Below, piece after piece: positions 2,951-12,781 of a stretch of 64,000 nt of DNA. Source of the stretch: Cliona cf. orientalis (Eukaryota > Porifera > Demospongiae > Clionaida > Clionaidae). Numbering within the stretch: position 1 is the stretch's first letter; each line of letters opens with the position of its first letter. Position numbers and translations under genes: made by a program. The notes below the pieces were generated by a model. The model had not been told where the DNA came from. It ran no database searches and saw only the letters and a program-made list of their open reading frames with translations. The stretch is from contig OZ005692.1 of the NCBI GenBank assembly GCA_963930775.1, positions 4,574,135 through 4,638,134 on the forward strand. The letters run 5' to 3'.

Positions 2951-2952
2951 TT

Positions 2953-2982
2953 AAACCACTTACAATTACACCACGGAATTTC
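2953..2982 (+). repeat. TE1 left terminal inverted repeat
   Basis: It begins AAACCACTTACAATTACACC and matches the complement of 12748-12777 over 30 of 30 bases. Homology stops immediately inside. The first two A bases overlap the TTAA target site. Confidence 0.92.
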
Positions 2983-3213
2983 TAATGGTCTCAATTTCTT
3001 ATAAATTTGGTGACATTATGTCAAAATGTTGGCCAAATTTCATCATATTATTAGATGTGGATCAGACTTTATTTAAAGTTTGATCAGCTTGAGAAATATT
3101 ATTGGATATTTACAAAAATGACATTTTGAACTATCTTAAAGAGTGTACTTAATCTATACAAGAAAGTCCATTAGATTGCCAGAATTGAAATTGAGTAATG
3201 GAAGCTGGGAAAC

Positions 3214-6200
3214 TTAGCTTCGTAGTTCAATGTACTTAAGCTGGATCTTTTTCTTTATGCCATTAGGAAGTTTTCGTCCTTCTGCTTCACTCCATGTGAA
3301 TTTGAGTATGATTTGCCTCCTAGTAATTTCTTCTATATTTAGCTGCATGCATCCTTCAACGCTTATCATTTCCTTTGTCCACTTTCTACTGTAACTCCCA
3401 CTCCACCACTGTATCTTCACCACCTCAGACTTCACTTCGAGGATCTCCCCGATAAGCGGCTCATTCGACCAATAGTGATGAGTCACAGCAACAAATTGTC
3501 CCGGTTGAAGATCACAGTCATCAAGCAAGATCTGGTCTACTGCTTCTGGTTCATCTCCAGTGCTTGTTCTGTTCTCTCCTGTGTTACTTCCCTCTTTTTG
3601 TTTGCCACGTTGATTGTCCTTTTTGCCACTCTGTTCGTTTGTCTTGGTTCCACTTGCTCTATTCTCTCCTGTGCTACTGCTCCTATCCTTTTGTAGGCCA
3701 GTTTGTCCACCTGCATCCCTTGTGCCTTTCTGCTCATTTTGCTTTTTCTTCCTCGTTCCCTTGGCTACATGTACCTGCATAGTCATAATACAATGATCTT
3801 TGAAATTTCAAAAATTTTCACTGAAATTTCGATATTTCTATAGCTAACTGCAAATTCTTGAAATTTCAAAATTTCTATAGATAGCTAGTGGCCAAATGTT
3901 TTGAAATTTCAAAGGAACTCAAAAAGTATGCCTGGTCACCAAGTAATCTCTGATGTACCAGTAGGATCCTAGCTGCTTTGAAATTTCAAAAGTTTCACAA
4001 TAATATTATGAAGGCAAGTTAAATAGGTATCTAATGGTTTTAAAACCAATACTTTGAAATTTCAAAATTAATATCAACAAAAACATGTGTCACTGATGGT
4101 AGCAGCATACAAGGACTATAATTGTTATTTTGAAATTTCAAATTCAGAGAGCCTCCTGTCCCTATCCTTTCTTAATGTCTATGCTGGGAAGGCTTGAGGA
4201 CAAAGCTATAGCTATAGTATAAGAAAGAGCCTTAAAGGAAAGTATTGCATGCTCACTGTAAAGTGGACCTTTAGCTACCTTTAAAACGTTCAGGGTGGCG
4301 GATCCACAATTTTCAGTTGCAATAGGAGGCACTTAAATTCGTAATCTTCTTAGGAGCCTAAGCCCAGGCACCCTAGGTTCCACCCCTGGATCTACCACTG
4401 CAAATACGGTATTGTATACTCTTGTGTATACTGTGCGATTGATGAGCACAAACATTTCTATATACTTTTGGATCGATACAGCTTTGTTAAGAATAACCTG
4501 ATGTTAAATAATAAACATACCTTTCCTGGCTGCTTGGTGGAGTTGTGCAAGTGTCGTAGTCTTTCCGATGCATGCTCCACTATTGTCTCAACACGTGGAT
4601 TACTCTCCGAAATCTTCTGCAGTTCGTTAAATGGCCATGTCTCTGCTGTACTGGTATCAATGGTTGAGGAAAGGCTAGCTTCAAAGTCTTCTAAAAACTT
4701 TTGCCACCACTGCCTATCTCCCCCAGAAAGGGCCTGGAACTTGGGAATATCTTGCTTCAGTCTTGAAAGGTCCAGTTTGTCACTTTTAGGCTTCACTAGC
4801 CTTGGCACACCTTGAGGAATACCCTATTATACAATACATATTATATTAATGCAATGATAATAATAATGTACCATGATCAATATGGTTGTATGTGCATATC
4901 ACAAACAATGCAGGAAAGAAACAAACTGCTCCATATTATATCTATAGAGGATCATAACTGTGCTCCATCTAAATAGGAATACCTTTTTCTAATAGTATTA
5001 TGCCTGATAATTATTATGCAATTAGTATGTGTACGTAAAGCTATCCAAATTTATGTGTGCGGATATAGCTACATTCATGCAAGAAGCAATGCATAACTAC
5101 ACAAAATCTCAGTGGCTAAATTTAAGGACGTGCTCTCACAAAATTAATGTGCTCACTACGTATACAATATACCTCTCTTGAGCTATGTAAATCACTTTTA
5201 AAGAAATTAGTCTACTAACATTTAGCAGCGTTAGTCCTGGTTTATCCAGTTCAGGTTCCCACTCGTCTCCATGCCAGTCCTTATGCCTCATCACACAATT
5301 TCCATCAGCTCCACGTGAAAAACGAAAGATATGTGGAGTGGAATGGCCTGTGATAGTGTTGATGTATGGAATGAGCCATCCCTTGATGTCATACATCTCT
5401 TCCAGCAATAGAGTATCACGTACATTCTTGTTCGCTTGTTTGCATCCTTCCATCAAACCTGATTTCAATTTGCATTTTCCTTACAGAAGATTTAATGATA
5501 TTGCTTGTTGCTTACCTGGCAGAGTCGTAGCATCATGTCTTTGTAACCATGTTCGAACGTTACCAAACATTGCATCAACATCTTCGTGGGTGTGTCCCTT
5601 CATGAGGAATCCCAATTGGACCTATAATATTATTATTATTATTATTTGCACATACCATAATGATACTATTAGCCGGAAATTTGGTGGATTGGTGAGAACA
5701 AAATTTATTATTAATTAAGTTTGGTGGATAGCTGAGTTCATTTAGCCATGTCCCGGCATTATCGATCAAGGGGGGGGGGGGTGGCTTAATTACTAGGCAA
5801 GCAATATGTACTGCTTCCATCATCAATAGTATTATAGAGTCAAGACTAGCATGCAGCTGTGAATGAGGGTATAATAATATTGGTAGATTTAATTTGGCAG
5901 TCAGCTGATTGATCCACCAAACTATCAAATTTTCTGGCTATACAATTCATTGCACTGGAGTGCAGAACCCTCAGTGCTAGCTACATACATGGAGTAACTA
6001 CATAATTGCAGTATCCCTCCGCCAGTGAGGGTTAATTAATTTTGATGGTATGTTCTTGTTAGATCAGTTACTATTCTATAAACAAACCTCATCAAAAATT
6101 TTGAGCTGTACGAGGAGATACAAGAAAGCGAGGACATATTGATTCTTGTTTTCCCTTCCACAATTATCCATCTGGGCGTACAAGCGATTCGGAAGTCGGC

Positions 6201-7883
6201 CTTCACTTTGGGTAACCTGCTTGAACCTCTCCTATTACAAGAGGGAAAGTTAGGAACTAGTCTGGTATAGTAATACTAATTGTATAGTGTTTAGGAGGCC
6301 TCTAATAAGTATTGAGAGCTTTATGTAAGTTAGAGAGGGTTCTATAGACCAGAGGTCTTCTAAATCGGGACAGTAGGTAAAATTAATATACACGTAATTT
6401 ACCCTACAATAATATTATTCTAGCGATACTCACCAGAATTACTTGAAGTAATACATTCATTGTAAGGTTAGGATCGTGAGGCCATTGATGAAGGTCAAAG
6501 TAGGCAGCACCCCAGTGCCCGTGGACTAGTACACCTGTAAGGTGGGTTCTAAGTTGCCACAGACTTGAAGCAGACTTTTCAATTCGCTTAGAATGGGGCA
6601 CATTCGTCTTGTTCTGATCCATCCCATCGATAATCAGAGATAGAATAGATGGGTCAGTCTCTGCTTTTTCTCTAATTTCATGATATCTTTTTCTTTGATC
6701 CCTGATTAAAAGGGCATAATTAATTTTGTGTAATTGTTGTAGTTTCATATGACCCATATATACTTACATTTGCAATTTATTGTGTTCTGAGATGATTTCA
6801 TTCAACTCCTTAATCTTCTGTTCATTCATTGTCTTCTCTTTCTCCCGTTTCACCATAGTACAAATGTCACATTTTGTAAATCTGTTCTCCTATTTGTGTA
6901 TAATAATATTCATGATAGAAGAGTAGGTAACGGATAGTCTGTGCCATGAATGACAATTTTATTTCAGGGCAGGAACATGTATTCCGTAGGTATCCCACGT
7001 AAGCACCCATGACTCAGTACTTAATATTAATATAATTCAAGATAGCTAATAGCCCCAAAATTTAATGGGCACTTCCTTATGTATAGAAGTCACTGCATTG
7101 ACCCCTTGAAATGAGGTACATGGGCGCTTGCCTAGAACACTACGGTAGTAGTAATATTATTATTATAATCTGAGGGTGGGAAGAGGGAGAATATTCTCTG
7201 ACATCCCCTGAAGTATTATGATGAACAAACCTTTGGAATCGAAACGTTGCCAAATTTCTCCTCCCAAATCTTGAAAAACTGAGATTGACTAATTATGGAT
7301 GGCTTGTGACGAGCTCTCATGTCATCAACCAGTCGTTGATACACGGCCACCTTCGTTAGGTTGCTTGGCAAATGAATGCCCATTTGATGAGGCAAATGAT
7401 CTCCAATCAGGTTGAAGAAGTAAGTCATCCATGCTGTTGCTTCATTCGTTCGCTGTGAATTAGTAATCAATAATTATTCCGATGTTTACCGTGCGCTAAT
7501 GCACATTATTATTATTACCTGGAGGGGTGCCCTTTGTGCATCACTGATAGTCTTAACCTGGCCGTGCAGAAATCCTTTTCTGACGTCATAGAAGAAAGAA
7601 TGGCTTATACCAAGTGTGGCAAGCCATAGAGGCTGGCAAGTGCTTATCCCACAGATAAGGTAGGTAGTATGTGCTTCATTGGTGCCCAGATTCTTGGATG
7701 TGTGAGCATTGAAGTAATCTAGGAGCCACTGTCTCCGCCCTGGCTTTGGAATTTGAGAGAAGTAGTTGTGATACAAAAGAAGATCAGCTGGTGCCACACC
7801 ATGCTTCTTGTAAGCACACTGCTCCATACATCCATTCATCTGCCATACTGTCTGGAAGTCCCAGCCCATTATAGACATTAAAT
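3214..7883 (-). CDS. TE1 transposase-like protein (DDE type, DUF7869-like), multi-exon
   Basis: About nine exons in translation order: ~7883-7522, ~7453-7231, ~6893-6755, ~6704-6434, ~6232-6088, ~5622-5519, ~5475-5219, ~4825-4519 and ~3778-3214, with GT-AG junctions visible. The N-terminal part has a helical region (RRQWLLDYFNAHTSKN). A KCDIC motif follows, then three acidic motifs in the order of an RNase-H-fold transposase: SLIIDGMDQNKT, YAQMDNCGRENKN and GFLMKGHTHEDVDAMF. The last exon encodes a Lys/Gln-rich linker and a small beta-rich C-terminal domain (PGQFVAVTHHYW, VKIQWWSGSYSRKW). I recognise the DN..RENKN/GHTHEDVD arrangement from many uncharacterised animal proteins; the DUF7869 name is my best recollection. 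A role as the transposase of TE1 is inferred from its position between the inverted repeats. The first ATG chosen is at 7878; an additional 5' exon may exist. Confidence 0.75.
3800..4141. repeat. TE1 left subterminal palindrome cluster
   Basis: Six perfect copies of the 12-bp palindrome TTGAAATTTCAA start at 3800, 3858, 3901, 3978, 4054 and 4130, with a partial copy near 3822. They sit in the last intron of the transposase-like gene. The same palindrome clusters near the opposite end of TE1. Subterminal arrays of this kind are commonly transposase-binding sites; that role is inferred. Confidence 0.85.
5672..5943. repeat. Degenerate MITE in TE1 intron
   Basis: The left edge reads TAGCCGGAAATTTGGTGGA and the right edge contains ATCCACCAAAC followed by TTTTCTGGCTATA, forming an imperfect inverted repeat. 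It is related to the cleaner copy at 17850-18067. It includes a poly-G run near 5771 and no coding exon. Confidence 0.5.
6973..7145. repeat. Short MITE-like element in TE1 intron
   Basis: It starts with a TATCCCACGTAAGCACCC-type end and finishes with GGGCGCTTGCCTAGAACACT. It is the same family as the short elements at 21357-21421 and ~39420-39560. It sits between two exons of the transposase-like gene. Confidence 0.45.
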
Positions 7884-8889
7884 CTGAAAGAAGCAATGAT
7901 TCATCAAGGTGTTTTTCTAGTAAGGGTGTGGGATAATTAAGACCCCCTCCCCCTTCCCCACTAAAATAAGGAAGGAGAGAGAAGAAACTTTAGAGGGAGA
8001 GAAGGGGGGAGAGGGAAGAGGTATGCCAATTAATATGTGGTGCTAAGATACTATTATTATTATGAGCTCTTTAAGTCCACCTAGGTAGCTATCATACCAA
8101 AAAGCATAAAATTTAATTGGGCATGGTAGCTAGCTATATGATTCATAAGGCTAGCTGCCATGGCATCCTCACTTCCACCCAAAACCAAATGAAACGTACA
8201 GGGTTGGAGGCATGTGCATGTGGATAGGAGGCAATTTCTAATAAGTAGCTACTCCATGAGGATTTGCAAATACTCCAATAGGGTTCACAAGTATTCAATG
8301 AGGATTTACAAATACTCTATTAAGATTTACATGCTGCCTTATAAGATGGACAAATGCATATGCACACATCTAAATACTAGCTCCTATATAACTTTATAGA
8401 GGCGAAATCTTGTATAGAAGCTGGGATGGTTTACTTCTTACATTCTAAACTAACTGTTGATGTCTAGCTCCATTGTGTATGGTGTTTGGATTGCTATAGG
8501 AACTTAATAATGTGTTATCAGTCGATATAATTGTTCAGTGCCATATGCTAACATACTGTATTTATGTGATTAGACGCCGAGGGTACTATTTTTTCTTTTC
8601 GCTGAAACTAGCGGTGATTATTCAAGGGCGGCATCAAAAACTTTCCTGAACTTCACCGACATGATCGTCTACAGTAGCGCCCCTCGAAACGAGCATGTGG
8701 ACACTGTTTAAAGGCATGGCAAGAAGGCTATAAGTAGACAATTTGAGGGTAGTGACAATCAAGTTTAGATATGTGAAGCCAGCGGCAACTATTTTAATGC
8801 TGTGACTATTTGAGGGTGGCGTCTAATCAAGGAAGTACAGTATATGTATGTACACTGGCATGCAGTTTATGTGTGTTTCTGTAATGCAG
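7884..8889. promoter_or_regulatory. TE1 central divergent promoter region
   Basis: This spacer separates the 5' ends of the two divergent TE1 genes, so both promoters and any 5' exons should lie here. No clear initiating exon for the plus-strand gene was found: the first recognisable exon starts at an acceptor at 8889/8890. A purine-rich tract at 7970-8020 and a MITE at 8553-8843 occupy part of it. Confidence 0.45.
8553..8843. repeat. MITE in TE1 central spacer
   Basis: The left end has TACTGTATTTATGTGATTAG followed by ACGCC; the right end is GGCGTCTAATC followed by AAGGAAGTACAGTA. Together they make an imperfect inverted repeat of about 30 bp. TA at each edge could be the target duplication. 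It has no coding capacity. Confidence 0.6.
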
Positions 8890-11800
8890 GGCAATTTAGA
8901 ATTCCAGTGAAGTGTCTTGTGGAACCAGCAGCATCACGGCTTATACGGCAACCACATGAGCCATACATCAAAGGGTTAAAAGAGGAAATGAAGAAAAACC
9001 CTACTTGTGATGTTGCACCGATTGTTGCCATGGTGAAGTTGACGGATGGACAAAAGTTCGATGAGGCACACCCGGAAGCATTTACATACGAGACTCTAGG
9101 AGGAAACCATTCAAGAATCGCTCTCCAGGAGTTGCTGAATGAGGACAAGCAGCTGGCTACTCTTCCATACTATCGGTCACGTCTTGTCAGTGTTTATTCT
9201 GGTTTATCGGATAAGCAAGCTACACATCTTGCCCTTAGACATAATAAAGCAACTGAATATACCAGCAAGCTAACAACACAAGACAAGGTAGGAGTTTGTC
9301 TGTGTCCTATGCATTGTGAATCCTTATATAACACTAAGAACAAAATAATTATGTGCTTGTGCATATTATATTTATAGCATAATAATGTTATTATAGCGGA
9401 AGTGATCAACACTTTGATCTACCAATGTTACTCAGCATCTCCATATGCTTTCTGCTCATGCGCTCAACCTAGCATAGTAGGTATGCATACTGCTGGATGC
9501 AGTGTGCAGATAGAGGATGCACTTGCTGTTATGCAGCATGCGGGGTATGTACTCTAGAGAGCTCTAGTTTGTTGCCTGTTTGATACAGTTATGAGAATAA
9601 TGTATATTAGTATTCGTAATAAGCTACCCCCTACTATGTGGTATTATTTGCGTACTCTTGCAATGTCACTTGATCATGCACATAATATAAAGGTCCAGAT
9701 ATGTAGAATGCGGCTGTATTCTATGGCAAAGAGAAGTTACACTGACGAACCTCCAGAGAAAACATCTCAATGGAGAGACTCCTGTAGCACTACGTTGATG
9801 ATGACGGTAAGTGTACCAATTTTGTGTTAAGGATTAGCAATTAAGTTTATTCTTGTTACACTAATGCAGGCAGAATAAAAATGATTAACTACAATATCAT
9901 AATTATATTTGTTTACAGAAAAAGCAACTAGATGAGAATATGATCTTCTTTCTCGCAAGCTTGCCAAATGAGACGTACAAAGTTCTACAGGATGTTTATC
10001 AGCAGTATGAAAGTGGAAAGCTTGTAAAGGTCCCTAAATCAAAGTGCAGCACAGCAGATGTTAAGCTAGATTGTCGGGGGAGCAATTTCAAGGGGCTTCG
10101 TAACCTCGACAATAACATTGTCACAGATGTCCTCAAAAAGGTGGCGAACAAGGATATTCCTTTTACAGCCATTGGTAGCTACTGCAAAGAAATTAAGAAC
10201 ATGAGACAGCTGAAAGAAGAATTCGCTCGATTGGTTGGTGCTTCTTCATGGGAAAATGCTCAGGAGCTTTATCCGGAATTCGCCAGCGAAGCTGTTTTGG
10301 AAAGGAAATTCAAAGGCATTCCGTTTACTAAGGATATGCCAGCTATGATTAACTTTTGCCAGAAAGCTATGAGGTATGTAATTTTATGTTTAATTTTATT
10401 GATATGTTTTCTGCATCCTGGCATACAGGTGCAACACAGCCACATGTGTACCAAGGGAGATTGAAACCCTCACTAATTTCATAGCATACGATGACGAGGA
10501 ATTCAAAGCATATGCTGGATTTTTTCCTCTCACTCCAGCATCTCTATCGTATAGCGATTTGGAACGAGTAATTCCGGCTTTCCCAGGATTTTCTCTAACA
10601 CTGTTACATCTGCCACCATCATCTGGAGCTGAAGAGGTACACACATACTTGCATATGCTTAGCATAATAATATTATTATTGGACTATTGTTATTATTATT
10701 ACTCTATAGATAGAAGCCATATCTCGGATGCTAAAGGCTGTAAATACAGCTGCCAATAAAACTGGATTTTCCCTGGTTGTTACACTGAATGAAAAGCAGA
10801 TGAGTGACTGTCTTGTCCTGCTGGAGAAGGAGTACAGTGTGACAGTTGGATATGCAAAAGATAATTCACTTCGTAGTTCTGGTAAGCTGCTCCAGAGATC
10901 AGTGTAAAGTATAATAGAGCATTAACTTCTTGTGGGTGTTTTAACTTCAGTGTGATATCACTATAATATTAATTCAAGGAGAGCTTGATACAATGTGAGG
11001 GTGGGAGGAACTGGTTCAATAATATAATATATTTCTGCTCCTAACAGCAGAACTTCCAGTCTAGGTATCACCATAAGAAGGTGCTCTCTCTAACTCTGAT
11101 CCCATTAACCTACAAACCCAAGTCAATATAGTTGTATATACTGGTAATTCTCCTCAAGTTAATTATTGCATTCCAGAAGTATTTTGTAATACATAATAGT
11201 TTACTGACCTGTGCATATTACTCTCTGTACACTCTAGGTGCCACCTTTCTGCTTCCCAGTGTCAGGCCGTTCATCTTAGCTTTGCATAATCCCGAGGCTT
11301 TGCGTCCCGTACTTAATATACTAGATGGACAATCTAATCTACTCAATACTTGTGGACCAGAAGATTTTGCTGCAGAATTTTGCTTGATGACAGCTACCAA
11401 AGATGACTACATTCTCATCATCAATGGAGGAGCAGGTCAGACAGTGATGTAGAATATTGTACAAAATCCTCATCATGTTGCTATAGCTAGTCTACATGTT
11501 GTGAATTTGCAACCTGTTACTGCTAGCAGAATTGTAGCTATAGAGTAACCACAAGAATGCGTTGATACCGTGTATAGTTGACAGCCTAATGTGATCAGCG
11601 ATGAGTCAGTTGAGCTATAAGAACTATCGCTATACCTACACACTAGTCTTGAAGTGATCGCTATAATAACTGATGCTCATTGCTGCAACTCTCATATTTA
11701 TTTATATGCTAGTTTGAGCACACAGAATCGAAGAATGTTTCACCCTGCTAATGCTTTGTTTTAATGCATAATTCAAATTGTATTTTGTTTCAACTTAGAC

Positions 11801-12623
11801 AACCCCTTGACACAAGGCCACCCCTCTATAAAGGTCAAACCTGCCTTCATTCCCCAATGGTGGCCGTTATAGAGGGGATGCTTCCTGTCAATAGAAATAA
11901 CAATTGTGAGCCAGCCTGTGTCAAATTTCTTGCAGCGTAACCTCGATTATCTGGATCCATTTGTCACATGGTTTATGGTACTCAGCCTGTAAACGATTTC
12001 GATACAGTATGATCATGGCCAGCAGCATTCAGAAAGGTCACTTGTGATCAATTTTGTCCCAATCAAAGCCTGTAGATCCCATAGCTCATCACTCAACATG
12101 TAACCACACTTTATGCGCATGTGTGGTAATCTTTTCTGGTGTCAAGCTAATCTGGATAATCGAGGTTCCAGATAAATGAGGTTGCACTGAGTCAGATTCT
12201 GGGAGTTTGAAATTTCAAAACCAAGTTCTAGTCTAGACATGCATTATTATTATTTTTGAGCACGGTTAGACTTGAAATTTCAAAATCCTCATGTGGGGTT
12301 GGTTTGAAATTTCAAGATGGCAATGCAACTAACCCACTAAATTGTATAAAGTTAAGAACCAACATGTATATACCAACTATGACATTGTAGGCTATACTTG
12401 AAATTTCAAGATGAAACAACTGAGATTCTGAAATTTCAAAAGCAATTCCTTGAATTGAATATTCTCCTCCACAGATGAGATTACTGCCGCACTGATGAGA
12501 GCCAGAAATGTTGTTGTCGCTGGAAAAGAGTGCCAGAGCCTGCAAGTCAAAGCTGCCAAGCTTTTAGCGAACACAGATGACAATGATAATGATGAGGAAG
12601 AACTAAGTCTGGAGGAAGCTTGA
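8890..12623 (+). CDS. TE1 ParB-like domain protein, multi-exon
   Basis: Exons at about 8890-9287, 9700-9810, 9919-10376, 10429-10635, 10711-10880, 11239-11434 and 12474-12623, joined by GT-AG introns. The first recognised exon reads FRIPVKCLVEP, then a block with LGGNHSRIALQELL and LRHNKATEYTSKLTTQDK. This resembles the ParB/sulfiredoxin-like N-terminal fold, in which a GGNHR-type box and a following helical region bind nucleotide and DNA. The middle exons hold a helix-rich region (VTDVLKKVANKDIPFTAIG), then a segment with LLPSVRPFILALHNPEALRP. The C-terminus is acidic (DDNDNDEEELSLEEA). It is transcribed away from the transposase-like gene and ends 125 bp before the right inverted repeat. 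A role in transposition, such as end binding or NTP-dependent clamping, is only an inference. The 5' end is incomplete. Confidence 0.7.
11933..12191. repeat. Pogo/Tigger-like MITE in intron of ParB-like gene
   Basis: The left edge contains CAGCGTAACCTCGATTATCT and the right edge contains the complement GGATAATCGAGGTTCC followed by GAGGTTGCACTG. The CAGnnnAACCTCG end is characteristic of pogo/Tigger-type elements. It contains no coding region. Confidence 0.6.
12207..12439. repeat. TE1 right subterminal palindrome cluster
   Basis: Perfect TTGAAATTTCAA copies start at 12207, 12272, 12304 and 12398, and a one-mismatch copy is at 12428. They lie 340-570 bp from the right end, in the last intron of the ParB-like gene. 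They mirror the left cluster at 3800-4141. Confidence 0.85.
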
Positions 12624-12747
12624 TGTATAATACTGATTGTAGGCATTGATGTATTGACTGTTATTGTATTATTTCATCAAATAATTTTTACCTTCTGACA
12701 AGAAAGCCAACATTATTGATTATTTATCAGACACTAAAATAGAATTG

Positions 12748-12777
12748 GAAATTCCGTGGTGTAATTGTAAGTGGTTT
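12748..12777 (-). repeat. TE1 right terminal inverted repeat
   Basis: Complement of 2953-2982 with no mismatch. It lies 125 bp downstream of the stop codon of the ParB-like gene and directly abuts the severed exon of Pmp gene 1. Confidence 0.92.
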
Positions 12778-12781
12778 TTAA

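Follow-up and report, generated by a model that had tools for sequence, protein, structure and literature searches.

A two-gene DNA transposon of the sponge Cliona cf. orientalis that pairs a probable DDD transposase with a distant ParB relative

Introduction

Transposon-borne accessory proteins that join a ParB-like domain to a methyltransferase are reportedly familiar from algae, in work by Iyer et al. 2011 and by Petroll et al. The closest published system that we found is Sola1-1_Ec32 of Ectocarpus, a large DNA transposon with an opposite-strand gene for a ParB-like plus N4/N6 methyltransferase protein (PMC12477816). In this report, we describe a 9,823-bp element from the sponge Cliona cf. 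orientalis, located in a 64,000-nucleotide stretch of contig OZ005692.1 (positions 4,574,135 to 4,638,134 of the forward strand; assembly GCA_963930775.1) that is hereafter called the window. The element is a real transposon from a recently active group, and we judge it reasonably probable that it is an autonomous cut-and-paste DNA transposon whose ParB-derived accessory protein binds the element's own palindromes and helps the transposase to pair the ends. Like Sola1-1_Ec32, it combines a transposase gene with an opposite-strand gene of the ParB-like/methyltransferase type, but its host is an animal, the methyltransferase half is degenerate and the transposase carries the DUF7869 domain. It also has subterminal palindrome arrays at both ends, a feature that the available portion of the Ectocarpus report does not mention for Sola1-1_Ec32 (PMC12477816). 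Hence, as far as that portion goes, ParB-plus-methyltransferase accessories were already reported in algal transposons and the animal variant is new, as are the palindrome arrays at the ends of ParB-carrying families.

Several other systems share features with this locus. Sola elements also have a DDD transposase, a 4-bp target duplication, variable inverted repeats and large size, a likeness that was assessed by description only (PMC10741241, as available in part). The target duplication given for Sola2 in the accessible text is AWWT (PMC3627910), unlike the TTTA, TTAA and ACTA duplications recorded here. We do not file the element under Sola because the transposases were compared by description only. 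Kolobok and KolobokP are likewise animal DNA transposons with accessory proteins and 4-bp duplications, but the text at hand describes Kolobok as specific for TTAA and as having a C/DxxH motif and an E in last place, whereas here one copy has ACTA and a D takes the third acidic position (PMC9587614). The resemblance to piggyBac is limited to a TTAA-like target at first glance; the element differs in the ACTA of one copy (c1_8) of a related family, in the TTTA that is the best reading in the window, and in having no Pfam piggyBac match. Bacterial parS sites are 16 bp long, and the element resembles ParB-parS systems in its distant ParB-domain homology and its clusters of perfect palindromes, which are 16 bp in one family. 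It differs from them in its GGNHSR/HN boxes, in that no partner ATPase was seen in the element, and in being a transposon rather than a replicon. Finally, L076 from a phage likewise has ParB followed by an N4/N6 methyltransferase in one protein, but it carries a catalytic DPPY that is replaced (by eye) in the animal proteins.

An insertion in a host exon

When the flanks of the element are joined, they form a single open minus-strand frame (...NYYGGAIALTNSKLIFKPNLKIFFISNHANEKGGALYIGD...) of a repeat-rich host protein, which bears out the claim in the initial annotation that removal restores a host exon. The inverted arms at 2953-2986 and 12744-12777 are 34 nt long and 97% complementary. The annotation had paired this inverted repeat with TTAA; the repeat stands, but TTAA gives way to TTTA here and to ACTA elsewhere. 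The junction letters (GG-TTTA-AACCAC...GTGGTT-TTTA-AAGATC) allow either TTAA or TTTA through a one-base shift. Because elements of the related c1_2/c1_8 family start with AAC between TTAA or ACTA flanks, the target duplication in the window is, by analogy, best read as TTTA and the element as 2954-12776. The boundary features are as follows.

2950-2953: left copy of the target site duplication TTTA, register-ambiguous with TTAA at 2951-2954 (window sequence and c1_2/c1_8 analogy)
2954-12776: transposon, 9,823 bp, ends placed by inverted repeats and register by analogy with the c1_2/c1_8 family
2954-2986, + strand: left terminal inverted repeat, beginning AACCACTTACAATTACACCACGGAATTTC (arm pairing)
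12744-12776, - strand: right terminal inverted repeat (arm pairing)
12777-12780: right copy of the target site duplication TTTA (window sequence and c1_2/c1_8 analogy)

In the copy c1_2 (C1:2892483-2905426), the inverted ends are identical over 43 bp and each is flanked by TTAA (47 bp including TTAA); c1_8 has the same ends, each flanked by ACTA. A third copy of this family carries both genes between matching ends at C1:23115660 and 23128735. All of c1_2, c1_8 and the window element start with AAC, and the target duplication is 4 bp without a fixed sequence, A/T-rich in the three cases (TTTA, TTAA and ACTA). A piggyBac or Kolobok assignment based on TTAA was considered and rejected, given the ACTA duplication in c1_8 and the D in the third triad place.

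The initial annotation had proposed a search with the end sequence for other full-length copies. With up to three mismatches, the 26-bp end of the window element occurs only twice in the 216.8-Mb genome, both times within the element itself. This exact family therefore looks single-copy, and apart from the restored exon it is the related families that show mobility. Copies a (C1) and b (C2), from a family near that of the window element, consist of pieces that are 99.1-99.8% identical over 12.6 kb aligned in a 13.4-kb span. These near-identical pieces lie in different flanks, a sign that the family moved or was duplicated recently. The right end of both copies (AACCAGTTCTTATTACAGTGCGGAATTTCC) is similar to that of the window element.

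The DUF7869 transposase

Two divergent genes fill the element, as first annotated, and the same pair recurs in the genome.

3214-7881, - strand: DUF7869 transposase gene, stop at 3214-3216, nine exon stretches (PF25273, D/D/D triad and NIPBL-related C-terminus)
7519-7881, 7231-7452, 6767-6889, 6434-6706, 6088-6231, 5517-5621, 5220-5459, 4521-4823 and 3217-3774, - strand: transposase exon stretches (edges approximate)
8889-12623, + strand: ParB-like accessory gene, stop at 12621-12623, seven exon stretches (profile-profile ParB match)
8889-9287 (ParB-like domain), 9693-9806, 9919-10374, 10430-10636, 10710-10883, 11240-11434 and 12474-12620, + strand: accessory exon stretches (edges approximate)

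All exon stretches of both genes are open. Their edges were set by hand, with gt/ag exactly at the edge for 18 of the 30 internal exon ends and a shift of a few bases needed at the others. The first exons of both genes were not found in the window element and should lie between 7882 and 8888.

The only strong Pfam match of the minus-strand protein is to DUF7869 (PF25273; 233.6 bits, E 1.9e-69, curated cut-off 26 bits). The DGMDQ, DNCGRENKN and GHTHEDVD motifs that had suggested a transposase are all present. An alignment of 43 relatives, which come from sponges, corals, molluscs, echinoderms, hemichordates, amphioxus, nemerteans and metagenomes, has the first D (IIDGMDQ) in 43/43, and both the second D (DNC) and the third (the last D of GHTHEDVD) in 41/41, two of the 43 rows being gapped there. 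The second and third D are separated by x41 in at least 35 of the 43. We read the triad as D/D/D because a DUF7869-only relative in the same genome keeps all three (by eye) but not the E of HTHED. These three invariant residues would be catalytic, and the gene probably encodes a DDD transposase, in keeping with the DDE-like transposase first proposed. A PDB sequence search gave no credible relative of the catalytic part, and a literature search on DUF7869 found no papers.

The DUF7869 profile matches the C-terminus of Nipped-B-like protein (NIPBL) in the PDB (6wge and 6wg3; E 1.5e-11), and a C-terminal slice of the profile (29 of the 43 sequences) aligns with the NIPBL segment by hhalign with probability 98.4, P 7.4e-15 and score 78.5, compared with a maximum of 16.7 in 60 shuffles. 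Taken alone, the corresponding domain of the window protein (3217-3500) matches weakly (E 0.24). The comparison suggests that the last domain of DUF7869 transposases is a homologue of the C-terminal part of this cohesin loader, which would tie the family to the loader. No paper linking DUF7869 and NIPBL was among the eight titles listed by a literature search.

The ParB-like accessory protein

The ParB/sulfiredoxin-like block that was first noticed in the partner is supported by profile-profile comparison. A profile built from 36 relatives (33 used) aligns in register over 83 columns with 13 ParB domains, 12 from phage records and one typed Spo0J (hhalign score 33.1, P 4.1e-5). Controls reach 18.6 at most in 200 column shuffles, 17.7 at most in 15 decoy slices, and 9.4 with the reversed profile. 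This points to a distant relative of the ParB domain. The protein has no credible Pfam match, searches of Pfam, NCBIfam and PHROGs with single sequences or a typed consensus detected no ParB family, and a PDB sequence search gave nothing credible; weak matches to DndB (E 0.12) and DUF6551 (E 0.069) are not relied upon. The GERR and ENxQR boxes that are canonical for CTP-binding ParB are absent from the accessory proteins. Because GGNHSR-type and HN sequences take their place, nucleotide binding cannot be inferred.

Named relatives occur only in the sponges Ephydatia and Dysidea, with the rest being fragments (among the best 7996 and 7994 candidates scored). The Dysidea avara relative P0002 is 33% identical to the window protein over 418 aligned positions, and its residues 590-665 match the phage methyltransferase family phrog_18293 (E 4.4e-4). 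The P0002 C-terminus also aligns with eight phage N4/N6 methyltransferases (score 32.0, P 9e-4), a set that excludes a ninth, L095, for which the translation was empty. The C-terminus of the window protein is called methyltransferase-like because it aligns with P0002. Where DPPY would be expected, the three proteins compared have LHLPP, FHLSP and LDFTG (by eye), so this half is apparently catalytically dead if the alignment is right. A plausible ancestor type is L076 of Latilactobacillus phage TMW 1.2272 P1 (1465-2619), annotated as a DNA modification methylase, in which an N-terminal ParB domain is followed by an N4/N6 methyltransferase domain. No relatives of P0002 were found among phages, and a PF01555 search of the sponge genome for an intact N4/N6 methyltransferase returned one weak match (E 0.004), which resembles a host tRNA methyltransferase gene. 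Thus, the relation to ParB proposed at the outset stands, but judging by P0002 the partner apparently derives from a ParB-methyltransferase protein and is not a ParB of the partition type.

Recurrent divergent pairing

The pairing of ParB-like and DUF7869 genes is systematic. The 72 ParB-like matches in the genome merge into 32 loci, and a DUF7869 match lies within 30 kb of 21 of them, among 150 listed DUF7869 matches. The nearest pair is divergent in 19 of these 21 cases, convergent in one and on the same strand in one. In contrast, 2000 random placements gave a mean of 2.4 loci near a match (max 9) and 0.64 divergent pairs (max 5), with guessed lengths for contigs C6, C9 and C19; lengths were likewise guessed for C6, C9 and C17 in the array-gene comparison below, and for C9 and C17 in the array-end comparison. 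Families that retain the divergent arrangement have ParB exons with about 33-77% identity to those of the window.

Palindrome arrays inside the ends

The last intron of each gene in the window element contains an array of the palindrome TTGAAATTTCAA.

3800-4141: left array, six copies of TTGAAATTTCAA, in the last intron of the transposase gene
12207-12439: right array, four copies of TTGAAATTTCAA and one with a single mismatch, in the last intron of the ParB-like gene

Ten perfect copies and one with one mismatch lie in the element, whereas the remaining 54 kb of the window has just two sites, each with one mismatch. These 13 matches at up to one mismatch, 11 of them within the two arrays, contrast with 0.58 expected from 100 shuffles (max 3). 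Arrays of this kind are present in at least six ParB-carrying families or loci, at both ends where both were read, and the palindromes share an AAATTT core while their arms vary by family. Copies a and b carry the TTGAAATTTCAA word on both sides, and TTGAAATTTCAA arrays lie just past the ParB-like exons at the C1:1998k, C11:2919k, C1:29796k and C1:2316k loci. The palindrome of c1_2 is different, a 16-bp TACCTAAATTTAGGTA present five times (three left and two right), and the C1:4117k locus has variants of GATCAGAAATTTCTGATC, of which two have a perfect 12-bp core and eight have no more than one mismatch. In simulated sequences, with 300 runs for the window element and 300 for c1_2, any 12-bp palindrome reached at most two copies. 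These palindromes look like parS in form and are candidate ParB-type sites. The DUF7869-only element, read end to end over 2.6 kb, has no repeated palindrome.

Genome-wide searches for paired sites gave 24 and 27 for TTG (TTGAAATTTCAA) in two spacing ranges, 27 for CCT (CCTAAATTTAGG) and four for CAG, with none in each backward-read control. A ParB-like locus lies within 16 kb of 10 of the 27 merged TTG arrays (random mean 0.27, max 3), four of the 25 CCT arrays (0.18, max 3) and one of the three CAG arrays (0.02, max 1). The CCT arrays that are far from genes are largely explained by nearby terminal repeats, given that 20 of the 25 lie no more than 4 kb inside a matching repeat (random mean 0.03, max 2). 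Two elements of this kind, C17:2520639-2524204 and C5:9808291-9811145, have paired ends 3,566 and 2,855 bp apart together with a CCTAAATTTAGG array, and neither contains a ParB-like or DUF7869 match among the matches listed. They are apparent non-autonomous derivatives of a family with two-gene copies, and they indicate that the palindromes travel with the ends even after gene loss.

Two observations had been named beforehand as signs against a two-gene transposon. Ends without genes do occur in a related family, but as ordinary non-autonomous derivatives of a two-gene family; and DUF7869 does occur apart from ParB, yet itself between inverted repeats.

Proposed mechanism and alternatives

In the mechanism that we favour, the DUF7869 protein would cut through its D/D/D triad at ends starting with AAC and insert with a 4-bp stagger. 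The accessory protein would derive from a phage- or bacterial-type ParB plus N4/N6 methyltransferase protein whose catalytic motif has been lost, and it would bind palindromes of 12-18 bp that are specific to the family and form clusters some 0.3-1.2 kb inward of either end. Once bound, and perhaps spreading like ParB, it might mark the element and help to pair both ends for the transposase. We favour the ParB-like protein as the binder because the palindromes are of ParB type, the protein is homologous to ParB, the sites diverge by family, and the palindromes are absent from the single-gene DUF7869 element.

A number of observations weigh against this proposal. The transposase or a host factor could bind the palindromes instead. 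The relation to ParB is distant because each of the 13 reference ParBs scores only 8.6-22.2 when taken singly; hmmscan gave a Pfam ParB match in 0 of 42 accessory family members, and a PF02195 search of the genome had no match. For the methyltransferase half, the alignment of the P0002 C-terminus with the phage methyltransferases is without its own shuffle control, no methyltransferase signal is obtained from the C-terminus of the window protein by itself (score 12.3, P 0.52), and a three-sequence C-terminal profile is weak (score 19.6, P 0.062; 100 shuffles with mean 12.1 and max 16.6). No listed DUF7869 match lies within 30 kb of 11 of the 32 ParB-like loci, which are possibly old fragments or neighbours of undetected diverged exons or unlisted matches. 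Similarly, 17 of the 27 TTGAAATTTCAA arrays are more than 16 kb from a ParB-like match, and five of the 25 CCTAAATTTAGG arrays are without a matching end within 4 kb. No palindrome array was found in the c7 element, where local repeats swamped the search for the element's boundaries. There is no recognisable left inverted repeat in copies a and b, and a search for a target duplication around the DUF7869-only element saw none.

Many DNA transposases use subterminal repeats, and the palindromes could be ordinary repeats bound by the transposase itself, with the ParB-like protein acting in some other way. Besides this precedent, the two gene-less derivatives that keep both ends and the array are as expected of any cis transposition site. 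However, the only DUF7869-only element examined end to end is without palindromes whereas the ParB-carrying families have them, and perfect-palindrome arrays would suit a dimeric helix-turn-helix or ParB-type binder, so we regard binding by the transposase as possible but doubtful. A bolder version of the favoured mechanism is that the transposon runs a eukaryotic ParB-parS-like system, in which the protein would recognise the palindrome matched to its family, be loaded at the end arrays, clamp or pair the ends, and perhaps exploit SMC/cohesin to bring together ends that are 10-17 kb apart. Bacterial ParB recruits SMC complexes, and this fact together with the NIPBL C-terminal domain of the transposase is the reason for considering such use; the whole version is nevertheless rather unlikely.

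The VANC proteins of plant VANDAL elements are anti-silencing factors, and a comparable role would have the accessory bind its motifs and counter host methylation, with its dead methyltransferase half reading or competing for methylation sites. The arrays do lie in non-coding parts, the last introns of both genes, and the Ectocarpus authors suggest, in the part of their report at hand, that a ParB-methyltransferase protein binds to the transposon that encodes it and modifies it (PMC12477816). But the arrays are near both ends and not in the shared region between the gene starts, and we think an anti-silencing role improbable. It is comparably unlikely that the element is a known Sola superfamily member with a captured cargo gene that has no role in transposition. 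The features shared with Sola, some members of which exceed 15 kb according to the available description (PMC10741241), and the opposite-strand ParB-methyltransferase gene of the Ectocarpus Sola1 element speak for it (PMC12477816, in part). On the other hand, TTTA, TTAA and ACTA do not fit the AWWT of Sola2 in the text at hand (PMC3627910), and the divergent pairing kept across diverged families opposes idle cargo. A composite or artefact, in which two unrelated genes came to lie inside a repeat by chance, might account for the unpaired ParB-like loci, but the 19 divergent pairs, the inverted ends and the restored exon make it highly implausible.

If the favoured mechanism is true, the element offers a simple two-protein, two-site system in which to test how a large transposon brings its distant ends together or marks itself, and an animal transposon may have reused a bacterial-style DNA-binding system. 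It would also give a function to DUF7869, an unnamed domain that the search for relatives retrieved in 43 proteins from animals and metagenomes. A single genome that holds families with diverged palindromes, each with its matching protein, also lends itself to testing protein-site coevolution.

Further relatives in the genome

The DUF7869-only relative is an intronless single-gene element of about 2.6 kb, with perfect inverted ends of 36-37 bp in two of the three copies examined and no ParB partner within it. One copy is 98-99.9% identical to five others over 2.4 kb, giving six near-identical copies (L025-L029 and L031) at these positions.

C10:3523104
C12:1152776
C12:3968323
C14:6120840
C14:7343911
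C13:6627689

Three pairs of TTGAAATTTCAA arrays that are 3-7 kb apart and have no listed gene match (C1:6469320-6472743, C2:2764535-2772104 and C9:8745914-8751770) are possible non-autonomous relatives of the window element. More CCTAAATTTAGG arrays and matching ends are scattered through the genome (40 of 63 candidate end matches scored). Genome-wide, there are at least 165 DUF7869 matches (150 of 266 candidates scored). Most of the 150 listed lie on the second half of contig C1 (mostly 16-38 Mb), which is possibly a repeat-rich or special chromosome region.

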